Below the pieces are notes generated by a model. That model saw only the letters and a list, made by a program, of their open reading frames with translations, made no database searches and was not told the origin of the DNA. A stretch of DNA of 64,000 nt from Bacteroidales bacterium (GTDB lineage Bacteria > Bacteroidota > Bacteroidia > Bacteroidales > UBA932): contig JAAZIA010000022.1 of NCBI GenBank assembly GCA_012510445.1, positions 62,001 through 126,000 on the forward strand. Direction: 5' to 3'. Position 1 is the first letter of the stretch; every line of letters begins with the position of its first letter. Position numbers and translations under genes: made by a program. Shown piece after piece: positions 2,354-21,431 of the stretch.

Positions 2354-2354
2354 T

Positions 2355-3566: not shown

Positions 3567-3567
3567 A

Positions 3568-5121: not shown

Positions 5122-5122
5122 A

Positions 5123-6535
5123 TCAGTCTTGTGTTTGGTGTATGAATGCGTTGTCTGTTTCTAGCCGTTGCTTTCCGTCTTTTGAGGTAAGGGTGTTTTT
5201 AGAAGGGGCAACTATGTCTGATCCTTCGGCCATGTGACCGGGTACTTCCTTTCTTTTGTAGGCAGGGATTTGTTCCAGCTTGCTGATGTCTTCTCCCGGT
5301 TCTACAATAAGAACAGGTTTGCTTTTAGAAACAGACGGAACCGTATGGGTAGAAGGCAAAGGATTTACAGGAAACACACTTGGATTGTGTGTAATGCGAA
5401 AGCCTTCCGAGGCCATTTCTTCGGTTGTTTCTACAGGATCGTCAGATAATGGTAAATGGTCATCTGCCAAAGAGTTGTCGTCCAGAAAAACAGTTATTTT
5501 GCCGTCTTCTTTTTGTTCTTTTTCTGCTCCGTAAACAGCCATGGGGGGAAGGGAGTGAATGCTGAAGCCGGTAGCAATAACCGTAACCCTTATCTCGTCT
5601 TGCAGAGAGGGGTCACATACAATGCCGCGTTTGAAGTTGGATACTCCTCCGGTATAATCTGCAATGTACTGCATGATATGAGAAAGCTCTGTCATAGAAA
5701 GTGCTTTTTCTTTACCGGAAGTAATGTTGATGAGTACATTTTTAGACCGGCTTAAATCGGCGTCATTCAATAAAGGAGAAGTAAAAGCAGACTCTACGGC
5801 TTGAAGAGCTCTGTTTTCTCCCGACCCCGACCCCGACCCCATCAAAGCCATACCGCTGTCCTTCATTACCATCTTAACGTCTGCAAAATCTACGTTCATA
5901 AATCCGGGGCGAGTAATAATTTCGGAAATGCCTTTGACGGCTGTATTCAGAATATCGTCTGTTCGTTGGAAAGCTTCAAAAATGGGAAGATCTCCGTAAA
6001 CTTTATACAATTTCTCATTATCTATGATCAGCATGGAATCTGTATACTGTTGCATTTCTCCAATGCCGTCAAGGGCTCTTTGCAGAAAATCTCTTCCTTC
6101 GTCGCGGAAAGGCAAAGTGACTACACCAACGGTAAGCAATCCCAGTTCCCGGGCAACGCGTGCAATAACGGGAGCTGCTCCCGTACCGGTTCCTCCTCCC
6201 ATTCCTGCGGTAATAAAAACCATTTCTGTTAGCCCTTCAAATAAGGCACGTATACGGTCTTCGCTTTCCAAGGCTGCCTGTTTGGCAATTTCCGGATTAC
6301 AACCGGCTCCTCTGCCACCTGTTAAGACAGCACCCAACTGAAGTTTTTCAGGTACGGGACTCATGTCCAATGCCTGCGAATCTGTATTGCAAACCACAAA
6401 ATCTACGTCTGTCAATCCCTGTCGGAACATATGACTTACGGCGTTACCGCCTCCACCACCTACTCCAATGACTTTTATAATGGACTGGTTTGTTTCCCAA
6501 TTTAGGGGAATAAATTCATCTTCTTTATTTTTCAT
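5123..6535 (-). CDS. ftsZ: cell division protein FtsZ
   Basis: FtsZ is the tubulin-like GTPase that polymerises into the cytokinetic ring. Visible motifs are the N-terminal 'GVGGGGGNAV', the tubulin signature 'GGGTGTGAAPVIA' and the T7-loop region 'VDFADVK'. The protein is 470 aa: a GTPase core of about 330 residues, an acidic and Ser/Thr/Pro-rich linker, then the conserved peptide 'IPAYKRK' that normally binds FtsA. Here that peptide is followed by about 40 further residues ending in 'HQTQD'. The gene is 4 bp downstream of ftsA and 1 bp upstream of gltX. Confidence 0.98.
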   Translation of the reverse strand: MKNKEDEFIPLNWETNQSIIKVIGVGGGGGNAVSHMFRQGLTDVDFVVCNTDSQALDMSPVPEKLQLGAVLTGGRGAGCNPEIAKQAALESEDRIRALFEGLTEMVFITAGMGGGTGTGAAPVIARVARELGLLTVGVVTLPFRDEGRDFLQRALDGIGEMQQYTDSMLIIDNEKLYKVYGDLPIFEAFQRTDDILNTAVKGISEIITRPGFMNVDFADVKMVMKDSGMALMGSGSGSGENRALQAVESAFTSPLLNDADLSRSKNVLINITSGKEKALSMTELSHIMQYIADYTGGVSNFKRGIVCDPSLQDEIRVTVIATGFSIHSLPPMAVYGAEKEQKEDGKITVFLDDNSLADDHLPLSDDPVETTEEMASEGFRITHNPSVFPVNPLPSTHTVPSVSKSKPVLIVEPGEDISKLEQIPAYKRKEVPGHMAEGSDIVAPSKNTLTSKDGKQRLETDNAFIHQTQD

Positions 6536-6539
6536 AATC

Positions 6540-7871
6540 TCATGCTTCGTTATCTGTTTCTTTAAAAAACCTGTCTAATTTGTTAAAAATGTTGCCCATA
6601 TTAGGTTTTTCTATTTTGTCTTTTCCTTTCCCGGAAACTCGGACCGATCGTTTTGTTTTTCCGGGAGCTACTCTTTCTACTCCTGCAAATATTTCTGTTA
6701 AAGTAGGTTCTCGTTTGGCTGAAAGCTGACTTTGCGCTTCAAAACCATAAATGAGCATCCCTGCGGCACAGGAATGGGTCACTTGACTTACGTCGTCGCC
6801 ACCTTGGGTAATGATGCCACGTGGCCGTGCTACCCGGGCTTCGTAACCTGTTTTAAACTTAATAAACGGAACCAAATGGGTAAGTAAAGAACCTCCTCCT
6901 GTAAGAACAATACCTGCCGGAAGCCTGTCTCCATAACCGCTTTGGTTAATCTCATACAACACAGCTTCCAGAATTTCATCTACACGTGCCTCGATAATCC
7001 TGGATAAGAATTTAAAAGAAATTTCTCTAGGCTCTCTTCCTCCAATACCGGAAATAACAATGGCCTTATTCTCGGGAGCCAGATCTACGTAACAAGACCC
7101 GTATTGAATTTTCATTTGTTCTGCATGGCGGAAAGTGACCTGGCAGCCCTGGCGAATGTCTTCTGTTATCACGTTGCCTCCAAAAGGGATAACGGCTGTG
7201 TGGCGTACAATGTTGTCGTGGTAAACCAAAAGATCTGTAGTTCCGCCTCCAATATCTACCATAACAACCCCCAGCTCTTTTTCATCTTCCTGAATAACAG
7301 CTTCTGCCGTTGCCAGGGGTTCCAGTATAAGCTTGTTTAACTTTACACCTGCATTTTCAATGCTTCTTTTGGTGTGTTCTGCAGAAACGCTTTTACCAAT
7401 AAAAATTTTGTAATTGGCCTCAATGGAACTGCCACAAACCCCAACAGGATTGGTAAGGTCTCTGTATTCATCTATATGGTATGATTGCGGTACTACATGC
7501 AATACTTCTTCTCCCGGCTTAACTCTGGAGTTGTACATATTCCGCCACATGGTACGAATTTCTTCCTCGGATATTTCTTTGTTGTGGTCGGGACGATTGG
7601 TATTGCTGCTGACAGAGGAACAGCGGACGTATTGCCCGGCTATTCCCACAATAGCTTCTTCTACAGGCTCTCCTGTTCTTGCCTCTAATTCTTCCAGAAG
7701 CGGTTTAAGGGTATTAAGTACACTTTGGTTGTTAACCACTTCCCCTCTCATAATGCCTTCAGAGGGAGCTTCACAAGCGGCTAGTACTTTATAGCCTTCC
7801 GGGGTTTTTATGCCGGTCAAGCATACCACTTTAGTGGTCCCCAGGTCAATCACAGAAATAGTCTTCTTCAT
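6540..7871 (-). CDS. ftsA: cell division protein FtsA
   Basis: FtsA is the actin-like ATPase that tethers FtsZ to the inner membrane. The N-terminal phosphate-binding segment is 'VIDLGTTKVVCL'; 'VVMVDIGGGTTDL' and 'IVLTGGGSLL' are the other nucleotide-binding loops. At 443 aa it is slightly long because of a charged stretch ('SGKGKDKIEKP') just before the C-terminal segment 'IFNKLDRFFKE', which has the amphipathic pattern expected of the membrane-targeting helix. The gene lies 22 bp after ftsQ and 4 bp before ftsZ, the standard dcw order. Confidence 0.97.
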   Translation of the reverse strand: MKKTISVIDLGTTKVVCLTGIKTPEGYKVLAACEAPSEGIMRGEVVNNQSVLNTLKPLLEELEARTGEPVEEAIVGIAGQYVRCSSVSSNTNRPDHNKEISEEEIRTMWRNMYNSRVKPGEEVLHVVPQSYHIDEYRDLTNPVGVCGSSIEANYKIFIGKSVSAEHTKRSIENAGVKLNKLILEPLATAEAVIQEDEKELGVVMVDIGGGTTDLLVYHDNIVRHTAVIPFGGNVITEDIRQGCQVTFRHAEQMKIQYGSCYVDLAPENKAIVISGIGGREPREISFKFLSRIIEARVDEILEAVLYEINQSGYGDRLPAGIVLTGGGSLLTHLVPFIKFKTGYEARVARPRGIITQGGDDVSQVTHSCAAGMLIYGFEAQSQLSAKREPTLTEIFAGVERVAPGKTKRSVRVSGKGKDKIEKPNMGNIFNKLDRFFKETDNEA

Positions 7872-7893
7872 AGGTCTGTCTTATTCTATATTT

Positions 7894-8682
7894 TTAATTT
7901 TTTCTTTGTTTGCATACCAATTGGTCTTTAAACCGGGCATCTATTACTTGGTATTTTTCTGCCCCGCCACGCGGTGCCAAAACGCGGTAAAATTCACGCA
8001 GTTTGTTCATTTTTGCTACAAACCGATTTGTATCACCCAACGTTAATATCAGGTTTTCTTCCGGAAGGATGCAAATCTCTTCCGAGTTTTTCACCCAGAT
8101 GCTTTTTGTTTTTTCTTTCCAGAAAGGGTCATTTACTACATAGGCTACAAAAGGTATGAGCTCTTCTAACCATCTTTGGGTGGAATCTGTATAGCCCCTA
8201 AACGAACTTTTGTAAGGAAACGGCACGTTGCCGTGTACCGTAAGTAACGGTAGAGGTTTTTCCAATCGGGCAGGGAAAACAAAACGTTCGTTGGTTACGT
8301 AAAACGTTCCGACCTGTGTCTCCAACAGAAAGAGTGGGTGGTGTTGCCAAATTTCCAGACTTAAGGTTCCTTTTATATTTTTAACGGCATTGCACTGGCG
8401 TACGGCGCCTTGAGATTCTATTTCTTTTTCTACCTGAAACAAATCGATTTCAGAAAAATGCTTCCCGGGAAGTACCATACCTTTCTTGTTCAGGGTAGAC
8501 AGAACTTCCGTGGCATAGGTTAAAGGAATAGCAATGCTGTCTTTTATAAGGATATCTACTTCCTGACATCTTTCCTGGTTTTTCTTATAAACAAGCACAG
8601 AAGCAAAATAAAAATAAGTTCCCAGCGCACCTGTTAATAACAGGTACCCCAGCATCTTTATTATTATTTTTAGCGCTTTCAT
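7894..8682 (-). CDS. ftsQ: cell division protein FtsQ
   Basis: FtsQ is a bitopic divisome protein linking early and late division proteins. I place the start at the ATG at 8682, which overlaps the murC TGA as ATGA. An ATG seven codons further upstream would create a 25-bp overlap. The resulting 262-aa protein has a short basic N-terminus, one membrane segment ('IIIKMLGYLLLTGALGTY') and a periplasmic part with a POTRA/FtsQ-like pattern. FtsQ is poorly conserved, so the call rests on position between murC and ftsA, topology and size. Confidence 0.9.
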   Translation of the reverse strand: MKALKIIIKMLGYLLLTGALGTYFYFASVLVYKKNQERCQEVDILIKDSIAIPLTYATEVLSTLNKKGMVLPGKHFSEIDLFQVEKEIESQGAVRQCNAVKNIKGTLSLEIWQHHPLFLLETQVGTFYVTNERFVFPARLEKPLPLLTVHGNVPFPYKSSFRGYTDSTQRWLEELIPFVAYVVNDPFWKEKTKSIWVKNSEEICILPEENLILTLGDTNRFVAKMNKLREFYRVLAPRGGAEKYQVIDARFKDQLVCKQRKN

Positions 8683-10052
8683 AAGCCCATTTCTTTTAAA
8701 CATTCGGTAATGGGATGTACCAGTTGGTCAATGTTACCGGCTCCCATGGTAAGCAGTACCTGCGGCCGGTGTTCTTTCACAAAATCTACCACCTGCGAAG
8801 AAGGTAATACACAATGTTCTTTTACTGTAAGCATGCGGCCCAACATTTCTGAGCTTACCCCCGGGAGGGGAGCTTCGCGTGCGGGATATATAGGCATAAG
8901 AACTACCTGGTCCAACAGGTCCAGGCTTTGAGCAAAGGCTGCGGCAAAATCTCGGGTTCTGGAATACAGGTGCGGCTGAAAAATACCGGTAATTTTCCGG
9001 TTGGGGAACCATTCCTTTACCGAAAGTACCGTAGCTTTTATCTCGGCCGGATGGTGTGCGTAATCGTCTATATAACAACATCCGTTTGTGAGGTAGCGAA
9101 CGTCCATTCGCCTGGCTACTCCGTTAAAAGCAGCTAGGGCTTCTCTGATGCCGGCAGGTTCTATTCCGTTGATATAAGCCAGGCCCGCAGCAGCAACGGC
9201 GTTTTCAACATGAATCTTTCCCGGAATGCCTAAAGTACAACCTTCAAGCCGGTGTCCGTTGAGCATAAGGTCAAAAGAATATTTTCCACCCGCGCTTGGA
9301 CGTGCGTTGCAAGCGTAAAAATCACACGGCTCTTGGTAATCGTAGGTAAAAAGTGTTATGTCTTCCTGCAGAGACAATGGAATATGCACGCCTTTTTTTA
9401 ACAAAAGCGAGCCGCCCCGGGTAATTTGTGAGGCAAACCGTCCAAAAGCTTCTATTATAGCACTGTGAGTGCCGTAAATATCCAGATGATCTGCCTGTGC
9501 AGAGGTAATGACCGCCGACTGCGGATGCAGTTGTAAAAAAGAGCGGTCGTATTCGTCTGCTTCTGCTACCAAAAAACCGCTGTCGCTCAACAGTAGGTTA
9601 GTATGGTAATTTTTTGAGATTCCGCCAAGGAAAGCCGTGCATCCCGTTCCCGAATGTTTGAGGATATGAGCCAACAGGGTAGAAGTGGTAGTTTTTCCAT
9701 GTGTTCCTGCAACGGCCAAGGTAATGTGTTTCTCTGCAATTTGTCCCAGGGCGGCGGAACGTTTAATGATGCGGTATTCTTTTTCCTTGAACCAAAGTAG
9801 CTCTTTATGGTCTGGCGGAAGGGCAGGAGTAAAAATAACGAGGGTTTTATATTTGTTTTGAACTATTTTTGCAGGAATCTTTCCGGGATCATCTTCAAAA
9901 TGAATGTCCATTCCTTCTGAAAGCAAGGCATCTGTAAGAGGAGTAGGCGTTAAATCGTAGCCACATACATAAGCACCGGTATGTTTATAGTACCGTGCCA
10001 ATGCACTCATTCCAATGCCTCCAATACCCAGGAAATAAACGTTTTCTATCAT
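8679..10052 (-). CDS. murC: UDP-N-acetylmuramate--L-alanine ligase
   Basis: MurC adds L-Ala to UDP-MurNAc, the first amino acid of the peptidoglycan stem peptide, in the cytoplasm. The N-terminal Rossmann-type motif is 'FLGIGGIGMSALA', the ATP-binding loop is 'GTHGKTTTSTLL', and 'DDYAHHPAEI' is the C-terminal Mur ligase block. The 457-aa length is typical. Start and stop codons overlap those of murG and ftsQ by 4 bp each, consistent with coupled translation. Confidence 0.97.
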   Translation of the reverse strand: MIENVYFLGIGGIGMSALARYYKHTGAYVCGYDLTPTPLTDALLSEGMDIHFEDDPGKIPAKIVQNKYKTLVIFTPALPPDHKELLWFKEKEYRIIKRSAALGQIAEKHITLAVAGTHGKTTTSTLLAHILKHSGTGCTAFLGGISKNYHTNLLLSDSGFLVAEADEYDRSFLQLHPQSAVITSAQADHLDIYGTHSAIIEAFGRFASQITRGGSLLLKKGVHIPLSLQEDITLFTYDYQEPCDFYACNARPSAGGKYSFDLMLNGHRLEGCTLGIPGKIHVENAVAAAGLAYINGIEPAGIREALAAFNGVARRMDVRYLTNGCCYIDDYAHHPAEIKATVLSVKEWFPNRKITGIFQPHLYSRTRDFAAAFAQSLDLLDQVVLMPIYPAREAPLPGVSSEMLGRMLTVKEHCVLPSSQVVDFVKEHRPQVLLTMGAGNIDQLVHPITECLKEMGL

Positions 10053-11167
10053 AACTCCAATACAAGCGTTGCAATATCTTTTGCCGCATGAGGTCGGCTT
10101 AATTGCAATACATTGCTTGATAAAATTTGCAATTTTTCATTATCAAATACAAGTTCCAGTGCTTTGTCCATCAAAACCTCCATGGCTTTGTTGTCCGGAA
10201 CCAAACAGCCCGCTTTTTCTTTTACAAGAGCCATGGCGTTGTGTGTCTGGTGGTCTTCTGCCACGTTGGGAGAAGGCACAAAAATACAGGCTTTTCCTGC
10301 TGCGCACAGCTCGGAAATAGTTCCGGCGCCGGCCCTGGAAACAACTAGGTCTGCCACTGCAAAAGCCAGGTCCATTCGCTCGATGAATTCGTGAACATAT
10401 ACAGGTACGTCCGGATATTGCCTAAGTGCCTCTTGAGCTCTGCCAATTCCGTTTCTTCCGCATTGCCAGAGGACTTGGACTGTTTGCTCTTTGGCACGAG
10501 GCAGATAGGCCTCCAAGCACCTGTTCAACGTTCCTGCACCCAAGCTGCCTCCAATGACCAGTATGGTTTTTTGTTCGGGATTGAGCCGGAAATACTCCAA
10601 CCCTTCTTTTACCCCTTTCTGTGTTGCCGGGCCAATGTTCTCCCGGATGGGGTTGCCTGTGAGTACTATTTTTGAGGCAGGGAAAAATCGCTCCATCCCG
10701 GGATAAGCTACGCATATATGTGCAGCTTGCGCCGCCAGTTTCTTATTTGTTTTGCCGGCAAAGCTGTTTTGTTCCTGCAGTAAGTAAGGTGTCTTTTTTC
10801 TTGCGGCTGCCCATAATAAAGGACCGCTGGCATACCCTCCAACGCCTACGGCTGCGTGAGGTCGAAAACGACGTAAAATTTGGAAAGATTTCAGAATACT
10901 TACCAACAGCTGAAACGGTAGCTTAAAGTTGCTCACTAAAGCCCGCCGGGAAAACCCCCTTTGGAATCCGCCAATGGGAAGTCCCTTTATGGGATATCCG
11001 GCAGCAGGAACTTTTTCCATTTCCATTTTACCCAGGGCTCCTACAAATAAGATCTTTGCCTTGGGGTCTCTTTCCCTGATGGCATGGGCAATGGATAAGG
11101 CGGGAAAAACGTGTCCGCCTGTTCCTCCTCCGCTTATTATGATATTACGATTTCGGCTCTGTTTCAT
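10049..11167 (-). CDS. murG: UDP-N-acetylglucosamine--MurNAc-(pentapeptide) pyrophosphoryl-undecaprenol GlcNAc transferase
   Basis: MurG converts lipid I to lipid II at the inner face of the cytoplasmic membrane. The GT28 signature 'SGGGTGGHVFPALSIA' is at the N-terminus, with 'GVGGYASGP' and 'VVSRAGAGTISEL' in the donor-binding domain. The protein is 372 aa, the usual size. The start overlaps the end of ftsW by 23 bp, and the stop overlaps murC as ATGA. Confidence 0.97.
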   Translation of the reverse strand: MKQSRNRNIIISGGGTGGHVFPALSIAHAIRERDPKAKILFVGALGKMEMEKVPAAGYPIKGLPIGGFQRGFSRRALVSNFKLPFQLLVSILKSFQILRRFRPHAAVGVGGYASGPLLWAAARKKTPYLLQEQNSFAGKTNKKLAAQAAHICVAYPGMERFFPASKIVLTGNPIRENIGPATQKGVKEGLEYFRLNPEQKTILVIGGSLGAGTLNRCLEAYLPRAKEQTVQVLWQCGRNGIGRAQEALRQYPDVPVYVHEFIERMDLAFAVADLVVSRAGAGTISELCAAGKACIFVPSPNVAEDHQTHNAMALVKEKAGCLVPDNKAMEVLMDKALELVFDNEKLQILSSNVLQLSRPHAAKDIATLVLEL

Positions 11168-12380
11168 CTTTCATCAACTCTCGTTTTTCTTTTTCTGTAA
11201 GTTCCAACTCATACAACCTTTCGTTTTCCAATGCTCGGCTCACAGATAGCATCATACCAAAAGCAAGGCCAACAGCCATAATGGAAGACCCTCCCAGGCT
11301 TATGAACGGAAGCGTTTGCCCCGTTACCGGCAGAACGCCCACATTTACCAGGATGTGTATCATGGCCTGAGTAACTATTAGTATACCAAGGCCAGACACC
11401 AGCATGGCAGAAAAGGTTTTCTTACATTTTTTAATAATGATTACAACACTGTATAAAAGCCACATATAAAAGCCAATGACAACCACTCCTCCCGCTAATC
11501 CCGTTTCTTCTACTATGATGGAAAAAATGTAATCGCTGTTAGAGAGCGGAAGCACTTCTCGCAACGTTCCGTTCCCCGGGATTTTCCCGCCAATTCCTCC
11601 GGTAGCTATGGCTACTTTTGAGAATACTACCTGATCGTTCTCTATTTTTTCTTCTTCTTTATCTTTGTTCAGGAAATCACCTATACGTTTTTCTACCGTG
11701 GCCAGCCTGGAAGTGGAAGTGAAAGAGGGATTGGTACTCTTTTTGACAGTACGGTGAAGCACCATGCCACCGTAACTAAGCCCGGCAAGCAAGATTACTA
11801 TTCCAACGGCCCGGGCAACGTACTTGAACGGGACTTGTGAAACAAGCAACATAATAAGGACAGTAAAAGACAACAAGGCTCCTGTAGAAAAACCTTCCCA
11901 CATGATGGGTAGAATAAAGACGGTTACCGGCAGGAACAACCTTAGTAAAAAATCTTTAAATGTGCCGAGCTTGTTATCTTCAAGCGTTTTTGCCACAAAG
12001 AGCACCAGTAAAATTTTTGCAAACTCTGAAGGTTGAAAGCGAAAGCCGGCAATGGACAACCACCGGGTGCTGTCATTGAGCGTTATTCCTCCAAAAAGGG
12101 TATAAATCATCAATCCCAGACCCACAACATAGGCAACGTAAGCCAGTTTTCTATAAAAACCCAAGGGAAAAATATGAGCAAGATAGACTATGACAAAGCC
12201 AATGATGATATGGCGCATTTGTTTGAGCATAATGGAAAAAGTAGTGGTGTTTTCCATTACTGCCTGACGACTGGAAGAAGAATACACAAAGACGAGTGAA
12301 ACCAATGAAAATACTATGATCAATGCCCACAAAGAAGTATCACCCTTCAACCGTATGTCTTTCTTTACGCTCTTAGTCAT
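11145..12380 (-). CDS. ftsW: septal peptidoglycan polymerase FtsW (SEDS family)
   Basis: FtsW is the SEDS glycosyltransferase that polymerises lipid II at the septum with its partner FtsI. The protein is 411 aa with about ten hydrophobic segments. Family blocks include 'LGGITLNDSTRWLSIAGFRFQPSE' split across a loop, 'FSIIVEETG' and 'LPFISLGGSS'. A charged extracytoplasmic insertion around 'KDKEEEKIEND' lies in the large loop, where other SEDS proteins vary. It lies between murD (2 bp gap) and murG (23 bp overlap). Confidence 0.96.
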   Translation of the reverse strand: MTKSVKKDIRLKGDTSLWALIIVFSLVSLVFVYSSSSRQAVMENTTTFSIMLKQMRHIIIGFVIVYLAHIFPLGFYRKLAYVAYVVGLGLMIYTLFGGITLNDSTRWLSIAGFRFQPSEFAKILLVLFVAKTLEDNKLGTFKDFLLRLFLPVTVFILPIMWEGFSTGALLSFTVLIMLLVSQVPFKYVARAVGIVILLAGLSYGGMVLHRTVKKSTNPSFTSTSRLATVEKRIGDFLNKDKEEEKIENDQVVFSKVAIATGGIGGKIPGNGTLREVLPLSNSDYIFSIIVEETGLAGGVVVIGFYMWLLYSVVIIIKKCKKTFSAMLVSGLGILIVTQAMIHILVNVGVLPVTGQTLPFISLGGSSIMAVGLAFGMMLSVSRALENERLYELELTEKEKRELMKDETEPKS

Positions 12381-12382
12381 CT

Positions 12383-13720
12383 TTATAATTTTCTTACGGC
12401 TTCTTTAAACCGGTTTCCTCTGTCTTCGTAATTCTTAAACAGGTCAAAGCTGGCACATGCAGGCGACAGAAGTACGGTGTCGCCGGGCGTAGACCATTCA
12501 TAGGCTTTGGCAACGGCCTCTTCCATGGAACGAGCCTCTGCCACTTTTGGCACCTTGTCTTTAAAGGCCATCATCAATTTTTCGTTATCTACCCCCAGGC
12601 ATATAAGTGCTTTCACTTTTTTGCCGACCGTTTCAAAGAGGGCACTGTAATCGTTTCCCTTATCTTCTCCACCGGCAATCCATACCACAGGAGTATCCAT
12701 ACTTTCCAAGGCGTACCATACGGCATTGACGTTGGTGGCTTTAGAATCATTCATATACAAAACGCCCCTTACCTTGGCTACCTCTTCCATACGGTGTGAA
12801 ATGCCTTTGAAAGAGGTCAGGCTTTCTCTGATTTGCGGGTTGCTCAAGTTCATGATCTTTGCCGAGAGGGCTGCTGCCATAGAATTATACACGTTATGTT
12901 TCCCTTGAAGGGCCAGCTCGTTGAGGAACATTTCAAATTCCTCTTTTCCGTAAGTAACGTGCATTTTCCCTTCTTTTGCATAGGCACCTTGTGCAACCGT
13001 AATTTTCTGTGACAGTGGCAACGCCTTGGCTTTCAGGATAATGTGATTTAGGTGTTCCATGGTAATGTGATCGTCCCTGCAAAAAATAAAACAATCTTCT
13101 TTCTCCAGATTTTGCGTAATCCTGAACTTGGCCCGCACGTATTCCATAAGGTCATTACCATAGCGGTCCAGATGGTCGGGTGTAATGTTTAGCAAAATGG
13201 CTATGTCTGCTTTAAAATCGTACATGCCGTCCAGCTGAAAACTGCTAAGCTCCAGAACGTATATGTCGTAATCTTGTGTAGCTACTTGGAAAGCAAAGCT
13301 TTCTCCAATGTTTCCTGCCAACCCCACGTTTAATCCTGCGTTCTTTAACAAATAATAAATTAAAGAAGCGGTGGTAGTTTTACCGTTGCTTCCCGTTACG
13401 CATACTTTTTTGGCTCGGGTATATCTGCTGGCAAACTCTATTTCAGAAATAACGGGAATTCCTTGTTGGATCAAGTCTTCTACAACAGGTGCCGTATACG
13501 GTATTCCCGGGCTTTTGATTACTTCTGCGGCTGTGATCATTTTTGAGAAAGTATGCACTCCTTCCTCAAAAGGTACGTTCAGCTCATTCAGCACTTTCTT
13601 TGCCTGCGGCTGTATGACACCCGAATCGGAAAGAAACACGTCGTACCCCTGCCTTTTAGCAAGCACAGCCGCTCCAATTCCGCTTTCGCCCCCTCCCAGT
13701 ATAACCAGTTTTTTACTCAT
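12383..13720 (-). CDS. murD: UDP-N-acetylmuramoylalanine--D-glutamate ligase
   Basis: MurD adds D-Glu to UDP-MurNAc-L-Ala. Evidence is the N-terminal 'ILGGGESGIGAAVLA' nucleotide-sugar fold, the ATP loop 'GSNGKTTTASLIYY', 'NITPDHLDRYG' and the C-terminal 'LLSPACASFDLF'. The 445-aa length is typical of Bacteroidota. It lies 13 bp after mraY and 2 bp before ftsW, the usual dcw order. Confidence 0.97.
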   Translation of the reverse strand: MSKKLVILGGGESGIGAAVLAKRQGYDVFLSDSGVIQPQAKKVLNELNVPFEEGVHTFSKMITAAEVIKSPGIPYTAPVVEDLIQQGIPVISEIEFASRYTRAKKVCVTGSNGKTTTASLIYYLLKNAGLNVGLAGNIGESFAFQVATQDYDIYVLELSSFQLDGMYDFKADIAILLNITPDHLDRYGNDLMEYVRAKFRITQNLEKEDCFIFCRDDHITMEHLNHIILKAKALPLSQKITVAQGAYAKEGKMHVTYGKEEFEMFLNELALQGKHNVYNSMAAALSAKIMNLSNPQIRESLTSFKGISHRMEEVAKVRGVLYMNDSKATNVNAVWYALESMDTPVVWIAGGEDKGNDYSALFETVGKKVKALICLGVDNEKLMMAFKDKVPKVAEARSMEEAVAKAYEWSTPGDTVLLSPACASFDLFKNYEDRGNRFKEAVRKL

Positions 13721-13733
13721 ATTGCATGTGTTA

Positions 13734-15098
13734 TTACCTGATTTTTAGTGTTATGATGGTTAGAACTGCCAATAGTATGCTTATGATCCAAAACCTGACA
13801 ACTACTTTAGGTTCTGCTAAAGGTTCTTCCGGGTTTTTTAAACGAATCTTGCTTTCCACCTTTTTTCGATCGTATATATAATGGTCATGAAGGGGAGCCC
13901 GCACAAAAACTCTTTCGCCCGTAATTACGTCTCCCGGTTTATAGGTTCCTTCTTTTATAAGTTCTTTTGTTTTGCGTAGGCGTGTTCGTTTGTACCAAAA
14001 ACGCTGAACGATTACAGAAACGCTTTCTGCCAAGAATATTCCGCAAAGAATAAGCAATAGCAATTCCACACGGATCATCAGGGCAAAAACAGCCACAATA
14101 CCACCTAAGGTAAGGCTCCCCACATCTCCCATAAACACTTCGGCCGGGTAGGTGTTGTACCATAAAAACCCAATGAGAGCCCCTATAAGTCCAGACATAA
14201 AGACCACCATTTCTCCCGAATTTGGGATGTACATAATGTTTAGATAGCGAGCATAAATGATGTTCCCCGACAAGTAAGCCAGCACGCCCAAGGTAATTCC
14301 TGCTATAGCCACGGTTCCTGTGGCCAGACCATCCCGTCCATCTGCCAGGTTTGTCCCGTTAGATACGGCCGTTACAATAAAAATGGCTACCAGAATGTAA
14401 ACTACCCATCCTGCTTTTTGTCCTGCCTCTCCCTTCAAAGGAGTGAGCCACGAGTAATCGAACAAATTGTCTTTCAAAAAAGGAATGGTTGTTTTTGTAC
14501 TTTTTACATGGCGTATATCTTCCGGAAACACTACTTGTTCTGTACTTTCTGTTTCTTTGGGCAGTTTCCCCATTTCAACAATAACTGCTCTGTCGCTCAT
14601 ATACAACGCCAGCCCCACAATCAATCCCAGACCTACTTGTCCATATATTTTAAGTTTTCCTTTCATCCCATCGCGGTCTTTGCGTTGAAAACGCAGAAAG
14701 AAACGCATAACCTTGCTGTCTTTTATTCCTGCTTTGCGCCTGAGCTTGAGTATATCATCCAACAAGCCTATGAGAGCAAGCCATAGGGTAGAAACAAGTA
14801 GCAATTGAACGTACAGGTTGGTAAGGTCGCACAATAACAATACGGCAACCAGCAAAGAAAGAATAATGATGATTCCTCCCATGGTAGGGGTCCCGGACTT
14901 ACCGTTTTCCCCGGTTTTAACAACCGTATCTGTTATTTGGTTTTTTTTCAAACGGGCAATGATGTGTTTACCGGCTACAAGGGAAATAAGCAAGGCTATA
15001 ATGACAGAACCAATGGACCGAACAGAAATGTAGCGAAACAGACCAATTCCGGGAAAATCTACGTGTTGTTTTAAGAATTCAAATAAATGGTAAAGCAT
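13734..15098 (-). CDS. mraY: phospho-N-acetylmuramoyl-pentapeptide transferase
   Basis: MraY transfers phospho-MurNAc-pentapeptide to undecaprenyl phosphate, making lipid I. The protein is 454 aa, longer than the roughly 360 residues of proteobacterial MraY; long forms with extra loops are known in Bacteroidota. Ten or so hydrophobic segments are present. 'GKSGTPTMGG', 'LIGLLDDILKLR' and 'NLADGRDGLATG' correspond to the conserved cytoplasmic loops with catalytic Asp residues; the last differs from the usual NLTDGLDGLA. A hydrophilic insertion of about 70 residues between segments accounts for most of the extra length. Confidence 0.96.
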   Translation of the reverse strand: MLYHLFEFLKQHVDFPGIGLFRYISVRSIGSVIIALLISLVAGKHIIARLKKNQITDTVVKTGENGKSGTPTMGGIIIILSLLVAVLLLCDLTNLYVQLLLVSTLWLALIGLLDDILKLRRKAGIKDSKVMRFFLRFQRKDRDGMKGKLKIYGQVGLGLIVGLALYMSDRAVIVEMGKLPKETESTEQVVFPEDIRHVKSTKTTIPFLKDNLFDYSWLTPLKGEAGQKAGWVVYILVAIFIVTAVSNGTNLADGRDGLATGTVAIAGITLGVLAYLSGNIIYARYLNIMYIPNSGEMVVFMSGLIGALIGFLWYNTYPAEVFMGDVGSLTLGGIVAVFALMIRVELLLLILCGIFLAESVSVIVQRFWYKRTRLRKTKELIKEGTYKPGDVITGERVFVRAPLHDHYIYDRKKVESKIRLKNPEEPLAEPKVVVRFWIISILLAVLTIITLKIR

Positions 15099-15099
15099 A

Positions 15100-16575
15100 T
15101 TATCCGGTCTTTAGTAGTTCTGTAAGTATTTCCTTATCATCAAAGTGCTTCTTTACGCCCTTAATGTCTTGGTACGTTTCGTGGCCTTTTCCCGCAACAA
15201 GAATGAGGGCTTCGTTTCCTGCCAGTTTCACAGCCGTTTTGATGGCCTGAAACCTGTCTGTAATGCGTAAGCATTTGTTCTGACGCTCTGGAGAAAGACC
15301 TGCGAACATATGATCCAGTATGATCTCGGGATCTTCAAACCTGGGGTTGTCAGAGGTGAAAACACAGACGTCTGCATATTTGTCTGCCACTTGTGCCATC
15401 AAAGGCCTTTTTGTAGTATCTCTGTTGCCACCACACCCCACCACACAAATCAACTGCTGCCCGGGAATAAGCAAGTCTCGCAAGGTGATCAATGCATTTT
15501 GCAATGCGTCGGGGGTATGTGCATAATCTACCACAGCTGTTAGGTTTTTACCTCCTCTTACGTACTCCATCCGACCGCTTACCGTTGTTAGAGAGCTAAG
15601 TACTCTCAGGATTTCTTCTGCCGGTTGGTCCAGTAGCCGAGCGCAGGCATATACACTCAACAAGTTGTACATGTTGTGAACTCCAATGAGAGGGCTCCAT
15701 ACGTGTATTCCGTTAATCATCAGCTCCATGCCGTCTGCGCTATGCTCCAGTATGCGTGCTGTAAAATCCGCTTTTCTTCTACAGGCATATGTGTAAATCC
15801 GGGACCGGGTGTTTTGGGTCATGACGTTTCCGTTGCGGTCGTCTGTATTGACCAGAGCAAAGGCCCGGGTGGGAAGGGCATCGAAAAAGGATTTCTTAGT
15901 ATCTCTGTAAGCAGCAAACGTTTGGTGGTAATCCAGGTGATCGTGTGTAAGGTTGGTAAAAATGCCTCCGGCAAAATGCAGCCCTGCCACTCTTTGCTGA
16001 TCAATGGCATGAGAACTTACCTCCATAAAGCAGTAAACACAGCCCTGTTCTACCATGTTTGATAACAAACGGTTGGTTGTTAAAATATCGGGGGTAGTAA
16101 GGCTGGCGGGCTCTGTCTCTTCGCCCACATAATTGGCAATGGTAGAGAGCAACCCGCTTTTATATCCCATTTTGTTGAAAAGCCTATGCAGCAGGGTGGC
16201 GGCTGTTGTTTTGCCGTTTGTACCGGTGATACCTATTAAGGTGAGTTTTTCTGACGGATGGCCGTACCTGGCATGAACAAGGATACCTAAAGCTTGCGCA
16301 GCATTGGGCACTTCAATAAATGTTGTTGTTTCTTTATATTCATCAACTACCTCCCAGTCTTCCAGGCAGCCTTTTTGGAACAAAACGGCAGCGGCTTTTT
16401 TTTCTACCACTTCTCTTACAAACAGATGCCCGTCTGTTTTTGTACCGGGTAGAGCAGCAAAAAGATCTCCTTCTCTTACTTGACGAGAATCTTGGCAAAT
16501 GTCGTTTATGCGAACCTCTTCCGGCCCGATGACGTTTTTTTCTTTTAACGTTTGTATGAGTAAGTTCAGTTTCAT
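15100..16575 (-). CDS. murE: UDP-MurNAc-L-Ala-D-Glu--2,6-diaminopimelate ligase
   Basis: MurE adds the third residue of the stem peptide. The ATP loop is 'GITGTNGKTTAATLL'. The motif 'TSDNPR' contains DNPR, which in this family marks specificity for meso-diaminopimelate rather than lysine, so the cell wall is predicted to be mDAP-type. 'VDYAHTPDAL' is another Mur ligase block. The 491-aa length is normal. It sits 11 bp after ftsI and 1 bp before mraY. Confidence 0.97.
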   Translation of the reverse strand: MKLNLLIQTLKEKNVIGPEEVRINDICQDSRQVREGDLFAALPGTKTDGHLFVREVVEKKAAAVLFQKGCLEDWEVVDEYKETTTFIEVPNAAQALGILVHARYGHPSEKLTLIGITGTNGKTTAATLLHRLFNKMGYKSGLLSTIANYVGEETEPASLTTPDILTTNRLLSNMVEQGCVYCFMEVSSHAIDQQRVAGLHFAGGIFTNLTHDHLDYHQTFAAYRDTKKSFFDALPTRAFALVNTDDRNGNVMTQNTRSRIYTYACRRKADFTARILEHSADGMELMINGIHVWSPLIGVHNMYNLLSVYACARLLDQPAEEILRVLSSLTTVSGRMEYVRGGKNLTAVVDYAHTPDALQNALITLRDLLIPGQQLICVVGCGGNRDTTKRPLMAQVADKYADVCVFTSDNPRFEDPEIILDHMFAGLSPERQNKCLRITDRFQAIKTAVKLAGNEALILVAGKGHETYQDIKGVKKHFDDKEILTELLKTG

Positions 16576-16586
16576 ATATCCTTTTG

Positions 16587-18365
16587 TTAGGAAGCTTGTT
16601 CCGGAGCTTCTAAAGGAGCGTTCCAGAAGGGGTTTGTAATGTATATATGGTCTGCTATTTTCTTAAAAACAGGAGCTGCCCAAGAGGCCCCGTAAAAATT
16701 GGCTCGGGTAGGGCTGGAGTATAAAATCACAATCATGCTGTATTTGGGTGATTCTGAAGGAAAGAACCCCACAAAAGAAGCTTGATGTTTTCTATACCCG
16801 TTATGCACAAAAGCTCCGTCGTAAGCGATCTGTGCCGTTCCCGTTTTACCCGATATGCTGTAACGGGAATCGTTTATCCCGGCCGCTGTTCCGTATTCTA
16901 CCACTCCTCTGAGTGCCTGACGAACGTCCCGTAGTGTAGAAGGAGTGCACAGTGTTCCGCTAAGAGGAGTATGTTCAAAGCGCTCTGTCACTTTTCCGTG
17001 TTGCATAAACGATTCTATGAAATACGGAGTAACCATACGGCCGTTGTTGGCAATGGCATTGTAAAACGTAAGTACATGAAGAGGGGTAAGTTGTATTTCG
17101 TACCCCATAGCAATCATGGGTAAGGAAAGCTTAGACCATCCCGGTTCTCCCGGAAAAGGAATCATAGCCTTGCCTTCTCCAAGCAGTTCAATGTTTAACT
17201 TTTCATTCAACTTCATGTTGTACAATCGGTTGATGAACCGCTTTTCTTTGTCTCCGTATTTATCTACTGCCAGCTTGGCAAAAGCCACGTTAGAAGATTT
17301 TTCAAAAGCTTGTTCCACCGTGAGGGTACCAAAAGAAGAGGTGGCCTCCGTAAAATTCTTACCGTAATAACGCCATCCGCCTCTTCCTGTTCTTACACTG
17401 TCTTTCAGATTTATGTAACCGTCTTCCAGAAGGGCAATGAGTGTTGCCAGTTTAAAAGTAGAACCGGGGTTTGTAGATTCGCTTATGGCGTAATTGAATG
17501 TTTCGTCGTAAGAGCCGTTTTTCATTTTCTTCATGTTTACAATGGCCCTTACGGCCCCTGTACTCACTTCCATGACTACGGCAGTAGCTCCTTCAAAAGT
17601 AGAATCTCTGGAGAGTTGTTCACGCAATGCATTTTCTGCGGCTTCTTGAATGGTGATGTCCAAGGTCGTCAAAATGTCCAGCCCGCTTTTAGGGTTTATT
17701 TCCGGGCGACCGGAAACAGGAACCCATTTATCCTCTCCGGAACGTCTGCGTACACGTTGTTTTCCCGGATGTCCTTTCAAGTACGTATGATAGGCATATT
17801 CAATACCTACTCCGGCCTGTTCGTTATCGCTTATATACCCAATGGTTCTATAAGCCAGTCTTCCGTAAGGATAGATCCTTTTGTCTTTTTGATTTACAAT
17901 AAAACCACCGCGGAACTGCCCCAAATTAAATATGGGGAACTCCTTAATCTTCAGCATTTCACTGTGAGATACCAACCGGTTGCCAAGCTGCAGGTTGCGG
18001 TATCCCGGTTTTTTTGTTCTGCGTGCCGTTGCAATTTCTCTTTCATAGGCAGCGGCCGGTTTATCTTTGAAGAGGGTTGAGAGTGATGCAGCAAGGGCTC
18101 CCAGGTTCCGATCAAGCAAGGCTTGATCCGGTATGGAACAATCCATCCTTATTTCATAAAAAGGAACGGTGCTGGCCAATACCCGGCCATCGTACCCCAA
18201 AATAGATCCGCGACCGGCCGGAACGTCAAAGGTGCGATACACAAGAGAGTCCAACTGATTTTTGTAATCGGAAAAGAACTGCAGGTATACAATCTGTCCT
18301 ATAGCCAGCAAGGCTATCAGAAGGTATACGAAGTACACGATCAGCATTTTGTTTGCCGTCTTCAT
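16587..18365 (-). CDS. ftsI: penicillin-binding protein 3-type transpeptidase (FtsI)
   Basis: This class B PBP cross-links septal peptidoglycan with FtsW. It has a membrane anchor (about residues 8-29), a dimerisation domain starting at 'GRGSILGYDGRVLA' and a transpeptidase domain. The three active-site motifs are S302-T-F-K305, S357-S-N359 and K507-T-G509. At 592 aa it ends about 80 residues after KTG with no room for a C-terminal PASTA domain, which many Bacteroidota homologues of about 700 aa carry. The start overlaps ftsL by 4 bp. Confidence 0.96.
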   Translation of the reverse strand: MKTANKMLIVYFVYLLIALLAIGQIVYLQFFSDYKNQLDSLVYRTFDVPAGRGSILGYDGRVLASTVPFYEIRMDCSIPDQALLDRNLGALAASLSTLFKDKPAAAYEREIATARRTKKPGYRNLQLGNRLVSHSEMLKIKEFPIFNLGQFRGGFIVNQKDKRIYPYGRLAYRTIGYISDNEQAGVGIEYAYHTYLKGHPGKQRVRRRSGEDKWVPVSGRPEINPKSGLDILTTLDITIQEAAENALREQLSRDSTFEGATAVVMEVSTGAVRAIVNMKKMKNGSYDETFNYAISESTNPGSTFKLATLIALLEDGYINLKDSVRTGRGGWRYYGKNFTEATSSFGTLTVEQAFEKSSNVAFAKLAVDKYGDKEKRFINRLYNMKLNEKLNIELLGEGKAMIPFPGEPGWSKLSLPMIAMGYEIQLTPLHVLTFYNAIANNGRMVTPYFIESFMQHGKVTERFEHTPLSGTLCTPSTLRDVRQALRGVVEYGTAAGINDSRYSISGKTGTAQIAYDGAFVHNGYRKHQASFVGFFPSESPKYSMIVILYSSPTRANFYGASWAAPVFKKIADHIYITNPFWNAPLEAPEQAS

Positions 18366-18697
18366 GGCTTGCTCTTAATCCAGGCAGGCGGATGGGTAGG
18401 GGCCTTTAGGTCAGACCCGCGTGCCTTCAGTTGTTTTTCTATTTCTTGTTGTCGGCTCAATTGCATGAGCTCGGCTGTTTTTCTTGTATACTCTGCATAC
18501 AGTACTTGTAGCTCTTTTTCCAATCTGTAATTGGCCAACAGCGTATTTTGCACTGTGTTGTTCATACTGATGTACAGAATGAGCAGCAGAAAAATGTATA
18601 AGATGAAGCTCAGATGTTTGGAAATGACACCTTGTAATAAGGTCCTGCCTCCAAAAAGGGTGGCAATGATCTGTTCACTTTTACGCATGGCTTGCAT
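18362..18697 (-). CDS. ftsL: FtsL-like cell division protein
   Basis: This 111-aa bitopic protein has a short cytoplasmic N-terminus, one membrane segment ('HLSFILYIFLLLILYISM'), then a heptad-like extracytoplasmic stretch ('RLEKELQVLYAEYTRKTAEL') suited to the coiled coil FtsL forms in the divisome. Sequence conservation in FtsL is weak, so the call rests on topology and on position between rsmH and ftsI. Two nearby ATGs (18697 and 18688) are possible starts, and both overlap the rsmH 3' end. Confidence 0.85.
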   Translation of the reverse strand: MQAMRKSEQIIATLFGGRTLLQGVISKHLSFILYIFLLLILYISMNNTVQNTLLANYRLEKELQVLYAEYTRKTAELMQLSRQQEIEKQLKARGSDLKAPTHPPAWIKSKP

Positions 18698-19574
18698 CCT
18701 CCCTTTTTTTCGCTGCCCGTAACTTGGCGCTTCGTGCTCTGGAGTTCTCTTTTATTTCTTCTTCTGTGGGCGTAACGGGCTTTTTGTTTAGTACAGACAA
18801 GAGGCCGGCAGAGGCCGACTCCCTTAGAAAATGCTTTACTATTCTGTCTTCCAAAGAGTGGTACGTTATGACCACAAGCCTACCACCCGGGTTTAATAAA
18901 GGAATGCTTTGGGTAAGCAGTCCTTCCAGGGCCCTCAATTCGTTATTTACCTCAATCCGTAGGGCTTGGTATGTTTTTGCCAAAAACTTATGTTCTCCTG
19001 TATGCGGAATGAAAGGTTGTAAAGCAGCCCGTAACTCTTCCGTAGTCTGAAGGGGTTTTCTTTGGCGCCATTGTACCACAGCTGCAGCCATCGCTCCGGC
19101 ACGACTTAATCCTCCGTACCGTCTAAAAAGAGAAGCCAGGTCTTCCTGTTCGTATGTATTCAGTACTACGGCTGCTGTTTTTTTTGCTTTCCTGTTCATG
19201 CGCATATCCAAAGGAGCATCAAAGCGGAAAGAAAAGCCACGCTCTGGGGTATCAAATTGATGCCAAGATACCCCCAGGTCTGCCAATATGCCATCTACTC
19301 CCAAGATGCCTTTGTGCTTGCAAACTTGATGTATGAACCGAAAATTGGAATGAACCCAGTGTATTCTCTTGTCGTTAGGAAGATTATCTTGTGATTGGGT
19401 ATCCAAATCAAAAGCCAGCAACCGACCATCGGGCCCCAGACACTCCAGAATGTTCCTTGTATGTCCTCCGCCCCCGAATGTAGCGTCTAAGTATGTGCCT
19501 TCCTGTTTGATTGCCAGGAATTCGATACTTTCTCTCAAAAGGACCGGTATATGATAGAAAACCATAGGAGCCAA
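18681..19574 (-). CDS. rsmH: 16S rRNA (cytosine-1402-N4)-methyltransferase
   Basis: RsmH (MraW) N4-methylates C1402 of 16S rRNA with S-adenosylmethionine. Family motifs are 'YHIPVLLRESIEFL', the SAM loop 'YLDATFGGGGHT', 'GILADLGVSWHQFD' and 'VVITYHSLEDRIVKHF'. The 297-aa length is typical. It begins 2 bp after the mraZ stop; a second ATG lies three codons in. Together with mraZ it forms the standard head of the dcw operon. Confidence 0.97.
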   Translation of the reverse strand: MAPMVFYHIPVLLRESIEFLAIKQEGTYLDATFGGGGHTRNILECLGPDGRLLAFDLDTQSQDNLPNDKRIHWVHSNFRFIHQVCKHKGILGVDGILADLGVSWHQFDTPERGFSFRFDAPLDMRMNRKAKKTAAVVLNTYEQEDLASLFRRYGGLSRAGAMAAAVVQWRQRKPLQTTEELRAALQPFIPHTGEHKFLAKTYQALRIEVNNELRALEGLLTQSIPLLNPGGRLVVITYHSLEDRIVKHFLRESASAGLLSVLNKKPVTPTEEEIKENSRARSAKLRAAKKREDASHA

Positions 19575-19576
19575 TA

Positions 19577-20026
19577 TTAAGACAACAGCTTTTCTGCAAG
19601 CGATACATATTTATCTTCACTAATCAAACTCGCTTGATAGGACTCCTTTGGCCACAATTCAATTTTAAAATCAGCCCCTGCAAAAACGACCTCTCTTTTT
19701 ATCCCTATCATGTTGAGTAAATGTTTGGGAATCAGTATCCTTCCTGTTTTTTCATCGGGTTCAACAACGGCTCTGTTGCTCATATAAGCCCTCCAAAAGA
19801 CAGCGTGTTCACGGTTAAACGAAGGGTTCAATCGGCTTTTAACTGCCTCTGACTGTTTCTCCCATTCGTCGTATGAATACATTTCCAGACAGGGACTGAA
19901 CAAATCTTTCTTTACAACAAACCGCAGTGGCAAATCAGGATCTGCAAGTGCCTTCAATGCAGCAGGAAATACCAGACGACCTTTGTCGTCTAGTTTTGCA
20001 CTGTATTCTCCTATAAATTTTGCCAC
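19577..20026 (-). CDS. mraZ: transcriptional regulator MraZ
   Basis: MraZ is an AbrB/SpoVT-fold DNA-binding protein that forms rings and binds repeated boxes at its own promoter, controlling the dcw operon. It is 149 aa. 'GEYSAKLDDKGRLVFPA' and 'EPDEKTGRILIPKHLL' are the two repeated swapped-hairpin motifs. The start codon is GTG (20024-20026); no in-frame ATG precedes the conserved 'AKFIGEYSAKLD' N-terminus. Four TG(G/T)AA boxes lie just upstream. Confidence 0.96.
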   Translation of the reverse strand: MAKFIGEYSAKLDDKGRLVFPAALKALADPDLPLRFVVKKDLFSPCLEMYSYDEWEKQSEAVKSRLNPSFNREHAVFWRAYMSNRAVVEPDEKTGRILIPKHLLNMIGIKREVVFAGADFKIELWPKESYQASLISEDKYVSLAEKLLS

Positions 20027-20048: not shown

Positions 20049-20056
20049 CAAAAATA
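20049..20056 (-). promoter_or_regulatory. predicted -7 promoter element for the mraZ/dcw operon
   Basis: On the minus strand this reads TATTTTTG, a match to the Bacteroidota -7 consensus TAnnTTTG. It predicts a start of transcription about 20 nt before the mraZ GTG. No good TTTG lies 19-21 nt upstream; that position is instead filled by the TG(G/T)AA boxes. Confidence 0.6.
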
Positions 20057-20060
20057 TAAA

Positions 20061-20100
20061 AATTTTTACACTATTTTCCATTTTTTTACAAATATTTCCA
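20061..20100 (-). promoter_or_regulatory. four 10-bp-spaced TG(G/T)AA boxes, predicted MraZ operator
   Basis: Read on the plus strand, four consecutive 10-bp blocks (20061-70, 71-80, 81-90, 91-100) each end in TTACA or TTCCA. On the minus strand this is TGGAA, TGTAA, TGGAA, TGTAA, one box per helical turn. In other bacteria MraZ binds three or four TGGGN-type boxes with 5-bp spacers (10-bp period) upstream of mraZ. The boxes lie immediately upstream of the -7 element, so bound MraZ would cover the -33 region. The neighbouring blocks on both sides lack the box. That these are the MraZ sites is inference from spacing and position. Confidence 0.75.
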
Positions 20101-20147
20101 CTTTGATACGTTTTTTCATAGTTTTGTATGAAAAGAAGAAAGGCAAT

Positions 20148-21431
20148 ATGAAAATCAAAGGTTTTATTTTCTTAGCAATTTGCTTTGTATGGGTCCATTG
20201 TTCTGTATCGCAAGAAAAATCAGATCTCCTGCCGCAAGAGCGGGAAGAAACCCCGGTAAGTAGCCAACTGGCGGAGTTTTGCAGCCTTTTTGAGTTGCCA
20301 AGCCAAGAATACAGTATAGAAAATGACGTGGTTAAAAGGAACGAAAACTTTTCTGCCCTTTTGCAAAACAAAGGAATAGGGCATCAAAAAGTATTTCTTG
20401 TATCGGAAGCTGCCCGGGGAATATTTGACATGCGAAAACTAAAGGCAGGCAACGCCTATTCGCTTTTATATACGAATGAAGCAGAAGAACCTTCCTATTT
20501 AGTATATCAGGAAAATTTCAGAACGTACATATGTTTTTCGCTTACAGACAGCTTGTGGGTTGCTCGTTCCCAGATTCCCCTACAAGTAGAAGAAAAATGC
20601 ATAGAAGTAACCATTGATCGTTCTTTATGGCAAGACTTGTCAGACGCCGGTTTTAATCCGCTGGTAGCTAACGGGCTGTCAGAAGTATTTGCCTGGACGG
20701 TAGATTTTTTTGGACTTCGCAAAGGAGATGTTTTTAGGGCTTACTACCTGGCGTACCTGCTCCAAGGCAAAGAAGTAGATGCCGGACCCATTTTGGCCGC
20801 ATCTTATACAAGAGACGGTGAATGCCGGCTTGCATTCCGGTACATACAGGATAGCATTCCGGGGTACTGGGACCAAGAAGGAATAAATTTACAAAGGACC
20901 TTCTTAAAAGCACCTCTTAAATACTCCAGGATCAGTTCCGGATTTTCCTATGCCCGCAGGCATCCCATTACGCGTGTAGTACGACCCCATACCGGGGTAG
21001 ATTATGCAGCACCTACAGGTACTCCTGTAATGAGCATTGGAGAGGGAAGAGTAATAGAAAGAACGTATACACGTGGCGGAGGCAATACCGTTAAAATTAA
21101 ACACAACAGCGTGTATACTACGGCGTACCTTCATCTGTCCCGCTTTGCATCGGGGCTGGTAGTAGGGAAACGCGTAGCACAAGGAGAAGTTATAGGTTAT
21201 GTGGGAAGTACAGGCATGTCAACGGGGCCACACCTGGATTTTCGTGTTTGGAAGAACGGAAAGCCCGTAAATCCTTTAACTATGGAATCTCTACCGGCAG
21301 ACCCTATTGAAGAAGGTCGCATGGAAGATTTCTTAGCCTCTGTTTTGCCTTATCGCAAATACATACAACCCGAGATCTATAAAGAAAAAGCCCTTCAGAT
21401 TATTGAGTATGCCGGTCTGAGTTTTGAGTGA
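20148..21431 (+). CDS. M23 family peptidase, probably exported (lipoprotein-like signal)
   Basis: A 427-aa predicted cell-envelope endopeptidase. The start is the ATG after an A/G-rich stretch; the protein then begins with a hydrophobic signal 'IKGFIFLAICFVWVHC', with a Cys that could be lipidated, though the lipobox is poor. The C-terminal third is an M23 (LytM/peptidoglycan DD-endopeptidase) domain: 'PHTGVDYAAPTGTPV' gives the first zinc His and Asp, and 'YLHLSR' follows. The last motif is 'TGPHLDFRV' instead of the usual HLHFE, so the final His ligand is Asp. The middle region has no recognised domain. It is divergent from mraZ; a -7-like TAGTTTTG lies at 20119-20126. Confidence 0.88.
   Translation: MKIKGFIFLAICFVWVHCSVSQEKSDLLPQEREETPVSSQLAEFCSLFELPSQEYSIENDVVKRNENFSALLQNKGIGHQKVFLVSEAARGIFDMRKLKAGNAYSLLYTNEAEEPSYLVYQENFRTYICFSLTDSLWVARSQIPLQVEEKCIEVTIDRSLWQDLSDAGFNPLVANGLSEVFAWTVDFFGLRKGDVFRAYYLAYLLQGKEVDAGPILAASYTRDGECRLAFRYIQDSIPGYWDQEGINLQRTFLKAPLKYSRISSGFSYARRHPITRVVRPHTGVDYAAPTGTPVMSIGEGRVIERTYTRGGGNTVKIKHNSVYTTAYLHLSRFASGLVVGKRVAQGEVIGYVGSTGMSTGPHLDFRVWKNGKPVNPLTMESLPADPIEEGRMEDFLASVLPYRKYIQPEIYKEKALQIIEYAGLSFE

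Follow-up and report, generated by a model that had tools for sequence, protein, structure and literature searches.

A predicted MraZ operator of four 10-bp repeats between mraZ and a divergent M23 peptidase gene in Bacteroidales

Four direct repeats located upstream of mraZ (20061–20100, minus strand) are very probably a landing site for MraZ, a widespread bacterial division regulator. The best explanation, which we hold with high confidence on the strength of the comparisons below, is that MraZ bound to this array would repress mraZ and the operon behind it, as well as, less surely, the divergent gene for an M23 peptidase. The array is tied to mraZ, keeps a fixed distance to the promoter and stands next to a gene for a MraZ protein, which argues for a MraZ autoregulatory operator of the known kind. 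Among the papers listed in a literature search, largely at title and abstract level, we found none describing a MraZ operator in Bacteroidota.

The four-box array, MraZ and the genes behind it

In the window, i.e., the whole stretch of 64,000 nt of DNA that was analysed, the minus strand toward mraZ reads AAAGTGGAAATATTTGTAAAAAAATGGAAAATAGTGTAAAAATTTTTATATTTTTGC. The boxes follow one another as TGGAA (box 1, 20096–20100), TGTAA (box 2, 20086–20090), TGGAA (box 3, 20076–20080) and TGTAA (box 4, 20066–20070), all on the minus strand and with steps of exactly 10 bp. The 10-bp register ends at both flanks of the array. The box letters, the coordinates and the break of the period on both sides, as given in an initial annotation, were thus found to be right on direct reading. 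The array was the sole run of four TG(G/T) at period 10 on both strands of the window, and also the sole run of at least three TG(G/T)AA. A model using the sequence only was built from 40 arrays and found a single place in the window (E 8e-10), a score that is partly circular since these 40 include the array of the window. In the source genome (1.71 Mb, 86.7% complete; 150 of the 1827 first-look candidates were scored), this model gave one good match with an E-value of 2.2e-8, the next one being at 0.29.

The -7 element of Bacteroidota promoters is TAnnTTTG, usually separated from the -33 element by some 19–21 nt. By this consensus we take TATTTTTG (20049–20056, minus strand) to be the -7 element of mraZ, at a distance of 14 nt from the TG of box 4. 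The -33 position of mraZ would then presumably correspond to 20075–20081, on box 3. The overlap of the array with the -33 element, which had been proposed initially, holds by position only, with the customary spacing, as no clear -33 consensus is readable. A scan for promoters of the sigma-70 type yielded 33, which does not exceed the 31.8 of shuffles, and a terminator scan 31, a slight excess over 24.5 (sd 4.9); neither result was relied on.

The mraZ gene (19577–20026, minus strand) has a GTG start and encodes 149 aa. Both halves of the protein scored above the Pfam MraZ cut-off, and a sequence search of the PDB matched the MraZ of M. pneumoniae (E 4e-11). The structure predicted for the monomer had a mean pLDDT of 93.4; among the structural matches listed, all 16 at E ≤ 0.001 were MraZ chains, including 9sz7, a cryo-EM entry described as M. 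genitalium MraZ with a 4-box promoter. With two MraZ domains and the MraZ fold, the protein of the window is MraZ as judged by sequence and predicted fold. The family is defined by a DXXXR motif in both halves. In the window protein the first motif is DDKGR, of which D13 and R17 were invariant in the 24 aligned MraZ proteins, and the second is D-X4-R.

Beyond mraZ, Pfam matches and gene order indicate a probable operon extending from rsmH to truB (1083–19574, minus strand), with intergenic gaps of at most 22 nt. The order is rsmH, ftsL, PBP/ftsI, murE, mraY, murD, ftsW, murG, murC, ftsQ, ftsA, ftsZ, gltX, an MFS protein gene, a dTDP-sugar epimerase gene and truB. All 13 genes of division and wall synthesis announced in the initial annotation were present downstream, as was gltX, with ftsQ assigned by its place only, without a Pfam match. 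The last four genes (1083–5121), which come after ftsZ, are separated by 1-nt gaps or overlap, and this stretch is a probable extension of the dcw operon. A single transcript would cover all 17 genes from mraZ to truB.

Promoter geometry in relatives and the divergent peptidase gene

A total of 161 sequences upstream of mraZ were compared: the window and 50 relatives (mraZ was present in 51 of 60 genomes, source genome included), 80 named loci, and 30 class loci from the best-scoring genomes among the 110 of the class that have mraZ. Thirteen were dropped as duplicates, leaving 148 distinct loci, a sample that leans to near relatives; a survey of 199 order genomes, of which 164 have mraZ, contributed no loci to it. 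The named loci are recorded under Bacteroidales or Bacteroidetes, almost always as MAGs, and included Candidatus Coprenecus and Cryptobacteroides; the closest ones, UBA5433 and DTU002, showed a MraZ identity of 91%. TAnnTTT(G/A) followed the last TG of the array at 14 or 15 nt in nearly all near relatives (78 of 80, taking the genus together with the named loci), in 24 of the 33 other arrays from the family and order, and in 14 of the 27 class arrays.

On the other side of the array, a gene of the plus strand (20148–21431), which the initial annotation of the repeats had left unmentioned, codes according to Pfam for a peptidase of the M23 family carrying a Csd3_N2 domain. Its product is probably an exported peptidoglycan endopeptidase, export being predicted from the N-terminus. 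The segment TAGTTTTG (20119–20126, plus strand) resembles TAnnTTTG and is the likely -7 element of the divergent promoter, whose expected -33 zone would fall, with the customary spacing, at 20094–20100 (plus strand), over box 1. With box 3 on the -33 zone of mraZ and box 1 on that of the M23 gene, one operator would lie over both, and from this layout we infer a dual control. The array, located between the dcw operon and the gene of a wall-cutting enzyme, could control both.

The upstream sequence was 700 nt or longer in 77 named loci, and 54 of these had an M23 homologue head-to-head with mraZ, at 450 nt or less; in the remaining ones, it was farther away (three loci) or not found (20 loci). 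In all 12 scored arrays of the genus, 17 or 18 nt separated box 1 from a divergent -7 element (0.76 in shuffles). The genus is represented by 13 loci; L035 was unscored because one of its boxes is TGGGA, yet it shows the divergent element. For the 67 named loci, five of them unscored, the element was seen in 16 of the 39 scored loci with a head-to-head M23 gene, with gaps from 10 to 22 nt (0.79 in shuffles), and in none of the 23 scored loci without it (0.12 in shuffles).

MraZ oligomers are rings of eight or nine subunits. We propose that each subunit of the ring would read one box, the four boxes being presented in a row on a common face of the helix, one per subunit. Since the array lies over the -33 zone, bound MraZ would cover the -33 zone of mraZ and should exclude RNA polymerase. 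MraZ would in this way repress its own gene together with up to 16 genes behind it, a negative autoregulation. The same complex may also turn down the M23 gene, with less certainty, because the divergent -33 zone overlaps box 1. If the peptidase gene shares the site, MraZ would coordinate the synthesis and the cleavage of the wall, beyond the division cluster, and a true dual operator would place wall making and wall cutting in one feedback loop.

The sign of the control is uncertain in this model. In Burkholderia cenocepacia, according to the accessible text of PMC7761207, four 7-nt repeats with 3-nt spacers precede the dcw operon, and MraZ shifts the fragment that carries them. The window resembles this system by its four repeats ahead of the dcw operon, but the B. 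cenocepacia repeats are located downstream of the -10 box and over the start site, whereas those of the window are upstream of the -7 element. The same text describes the mycoplasma MraZ as an activator (PMC7761207), and both observations bear on the sign of the control. That MraZ binds as an activator, or that it binds and leaves the divergent gene unaffected, is a rather unlikely reading, although TAnnTTTG was missing from the tested place in 23 of the 39 scored named loci whose M23 gene is head-to-head. By position, the boxes cover both -33 zones, and in M. genitalium the downstream genes rise when mraZ is deleted, as stated in the part of PMC8475190 available to us, where repression by MraZ is reported for M. 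genitalium and, by citation, for E. coli.

Joint occurrence of the array and mraZ

The initial reading of the repeats as a Bacteroidota version of the MraZ operator depended on the conservation of the boxes and of their period in relatives, and both this conservation and the joint loss with mraZ support it. A run of at least three TG(G/T) at period 10 was present upstream of mraZ in 140 of the 148 distinct loci (mean of 1.35 in shuffles), and a run of at least four in 115 (mean of 0.05). When the remaining periods between 6 and 16 were tried, runs of at least four were found in at most one of the 148 loci. Period 12 gave 30 loci with a run of three and no locus with four, and each further period gave at most two loci with a run of three. 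Eight loci had no run of at least three; by eye, seven of them showed fewer, broken or partly inverted boxes, and no boxes were visible upstream of mraZ in L014. Two loci, L003 and L017, displayed by eye one in-register box that was inverted, TCCC standing beside GTGG or GTGC boxes.

The genomes followed that had no mraZ match numbered 31, of which 27 possessed rsmH (7 of 9 and 20 of 22); the four without an rsmH match were left out of the count, as were 15 further genomes without mraZ. These 27 clusters span 20 family labels. The 330 nt preceding rsmH held no run of at least three boxes in any of them, and the fetched stretches contained no MraZ frame. The array was therefore present in 140 of 148 loci with mraZ and in 0 of 27 without it, corresponding to a Fisher value of 6e-25 when kinship is ignored. 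The same situation was observed inside the genus g10: G354 has kept both mraZ and the array, and G021 has neither, its rsmH and M23 genes being still head-to-head. In G057, which has no mraZ, two boxes are left at 10 bp and look like a remnant. Such variation of an operator across a clade, together with genomes devoid of both regulator and site, constitutes a data set for the study of DNA reading by MraZ.

Two peculiarities of MraZ itself were seen in this collection. L047 (genome G015) has extra sequence inserted between residues 35 and 53 of the frame, and the profile match is in two pieces. In G026 the two halves of MraZ are on separate contigs (C14 and C28), one half lying at the end of its contig; the assembly is probably broken within mraZ.

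When applied to 39 genomes of the family, the array model gave a match at E ≤ 0.1 in 33; G020 and G035, among the six without a match, have mraZ. At E ≤ 0.001 there was exactly one match in 25 of the 39 genomes and two in none, and in the 20 single-match genomes that were fetched, a MraZ frame adjoined the match in all. These results point to a narrow regulon. A single chromosomal site is likewise mentioned for M. genitalium in the accessible text of PMC8475190, as compared to the one good site in the source genome here.

The array could also serve a different DNA-binding protein, or be a structural feature of the A-tract type, and lie at the mraZ promoter by coincidence. The stretch is AT-rich, and in many relatives the array is directly adjoined by a 9-mer of another kind, TTWTYAACA, so that a second protein may bind nearby. 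Against this stand the absence of the array from the 27 clusters without mraZ, also within g10 where the neighbours are kept, and the agreement of the box with both the GTGGG of E. coli K-12 and, as far as the available text of PMC5282649 goes, the AAAGTGK of Mollicutes; we consider this possibility very improbable. Chance repeats, which the low GC content of the array (19%) might favour, are refuted by the class-wide conservation and by shuffling: when the window's 160 nt ahead of mraZ were shuffled 20,000 times with dinucleotides preserved, no run of four TG(G/T) arose.

Box letters, the second MraZ motif and a neighbouring 9-mer

The MraZ boxes of E. coli were reportedly described by Eraso et al. 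2014. The sequence upstream of mraZ in E. coli K-12 reads GTGGGAAATTGTGGGGCAAAGTGGG, with GTGGG repeats at 10 bp; these three boxes are near the start codon, whereas the window has TG(G/T)AA over the -33 zone. The E. coli-type core TGGGN was not what we found, the core being TG(G/T)AA in the window and mostly TGG(G/T) in the class loci. The array shares with known MraZ boxes the direct TG-core repeats at a 10-bp period and the location at the promoter of mraZ, the first dcw gene. The description of the box in Mollicutes is attributed to Fisunov et al. 2016, as cited in PMC5282649 and PMC8475190. In the accessible text of PMC5282649, the Mollicutes sites are given as (AAAGTGKN3)3, where K is G or T, and the likeness to the window lies in the 10-bp direct repeats at the mraZ promoter and in the TG core followed by G or T. 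Box 1, extended to AAAGTGGAAA, matches AAAGTGK in full and is the only one to do so, hence the assignment of the window array to the MraZ operators rests on the wider TG-core definition. The clade of the window differs from Mollicutes by a base 4 that is nearly always A, by a promoter of the Bacteroidota type and by an operator placed between divergent promoters.

The commonest box letters in near relatives were AAAGTG(G/T)AAA. The base after TG(G/T) was A in 260 of 268 boxes from the 67 named loci, and the 93 boxes of the 27 class arrays had A in 4, C in 13, G in 35 and T in 41. The box had initially been described as drifted to TG(G/T)AA, but the choice between G and T is no drift, as it also exists in Mollicutes in the available text of PMC5282649. 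This choice being common to distant phyla, the change proper to the clade is the A at base 4. The strict G/T/G/T alternation pointed out initially was true of the window and did not extend to the genus, as box 4 was GTGGA in 11 of the 13 loci. A fifth in-register TG(G/T) was present in four of these 13 loci.

By a simple pattern search, the second half of MraZ contained D-X4-R in 91 of the 100 loci whose boxes are of the A type, compared with 0 of 40 others. The other nine A-type loci comprised four misreads of the first motif, three in which the motif was not found by this pattern and two with D-X3-R (L006 and L009). Mutual information linked base 4 to many MraZ positions, including residue 14 inside the first DXXXR. 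The coincidence of D-X4-R with A at base 4 is a lead only, because both traits follow one lineage, and for this reason residue 14 and D-X4-R were dropped as candidates for the residue setting base 4. A wider scheme, in which the operator would set both outward promoters and base 4 would have been recoded while the second DXXXR loop of MraZ gained one residue, is put forward tentatively, as possible but somewhat doubtful.

The 9-mer TTWTYAACA resembles a DnaA box, but is not called one here since it formed no consistent cluster around dnaA (21 loci in 20 genomes). It was absent from the 13 loci of the window's genus. In the class it abuts the array with a gap of 2–4 nt in 15 of 27 arrays, and in the other family and order arrays it does so in nine of 33 (ten within 80 nt). 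A reversed copy lies at a gap of 4–6 nt in 28 of the 67 named loci. Less than one occurrence was obtained in shuffles for each of these three groups; L159, L148, L144 and L007 are examples from the class and other relatives, and the named near relatives are within L071–L139. The reversed 9-mer was also found in eight of the 27 clusters without mraZ (for instance L057, L058, L174 and L181), for a shuffle expectation of 0.62, which makes it improbable that MraZ binds there.
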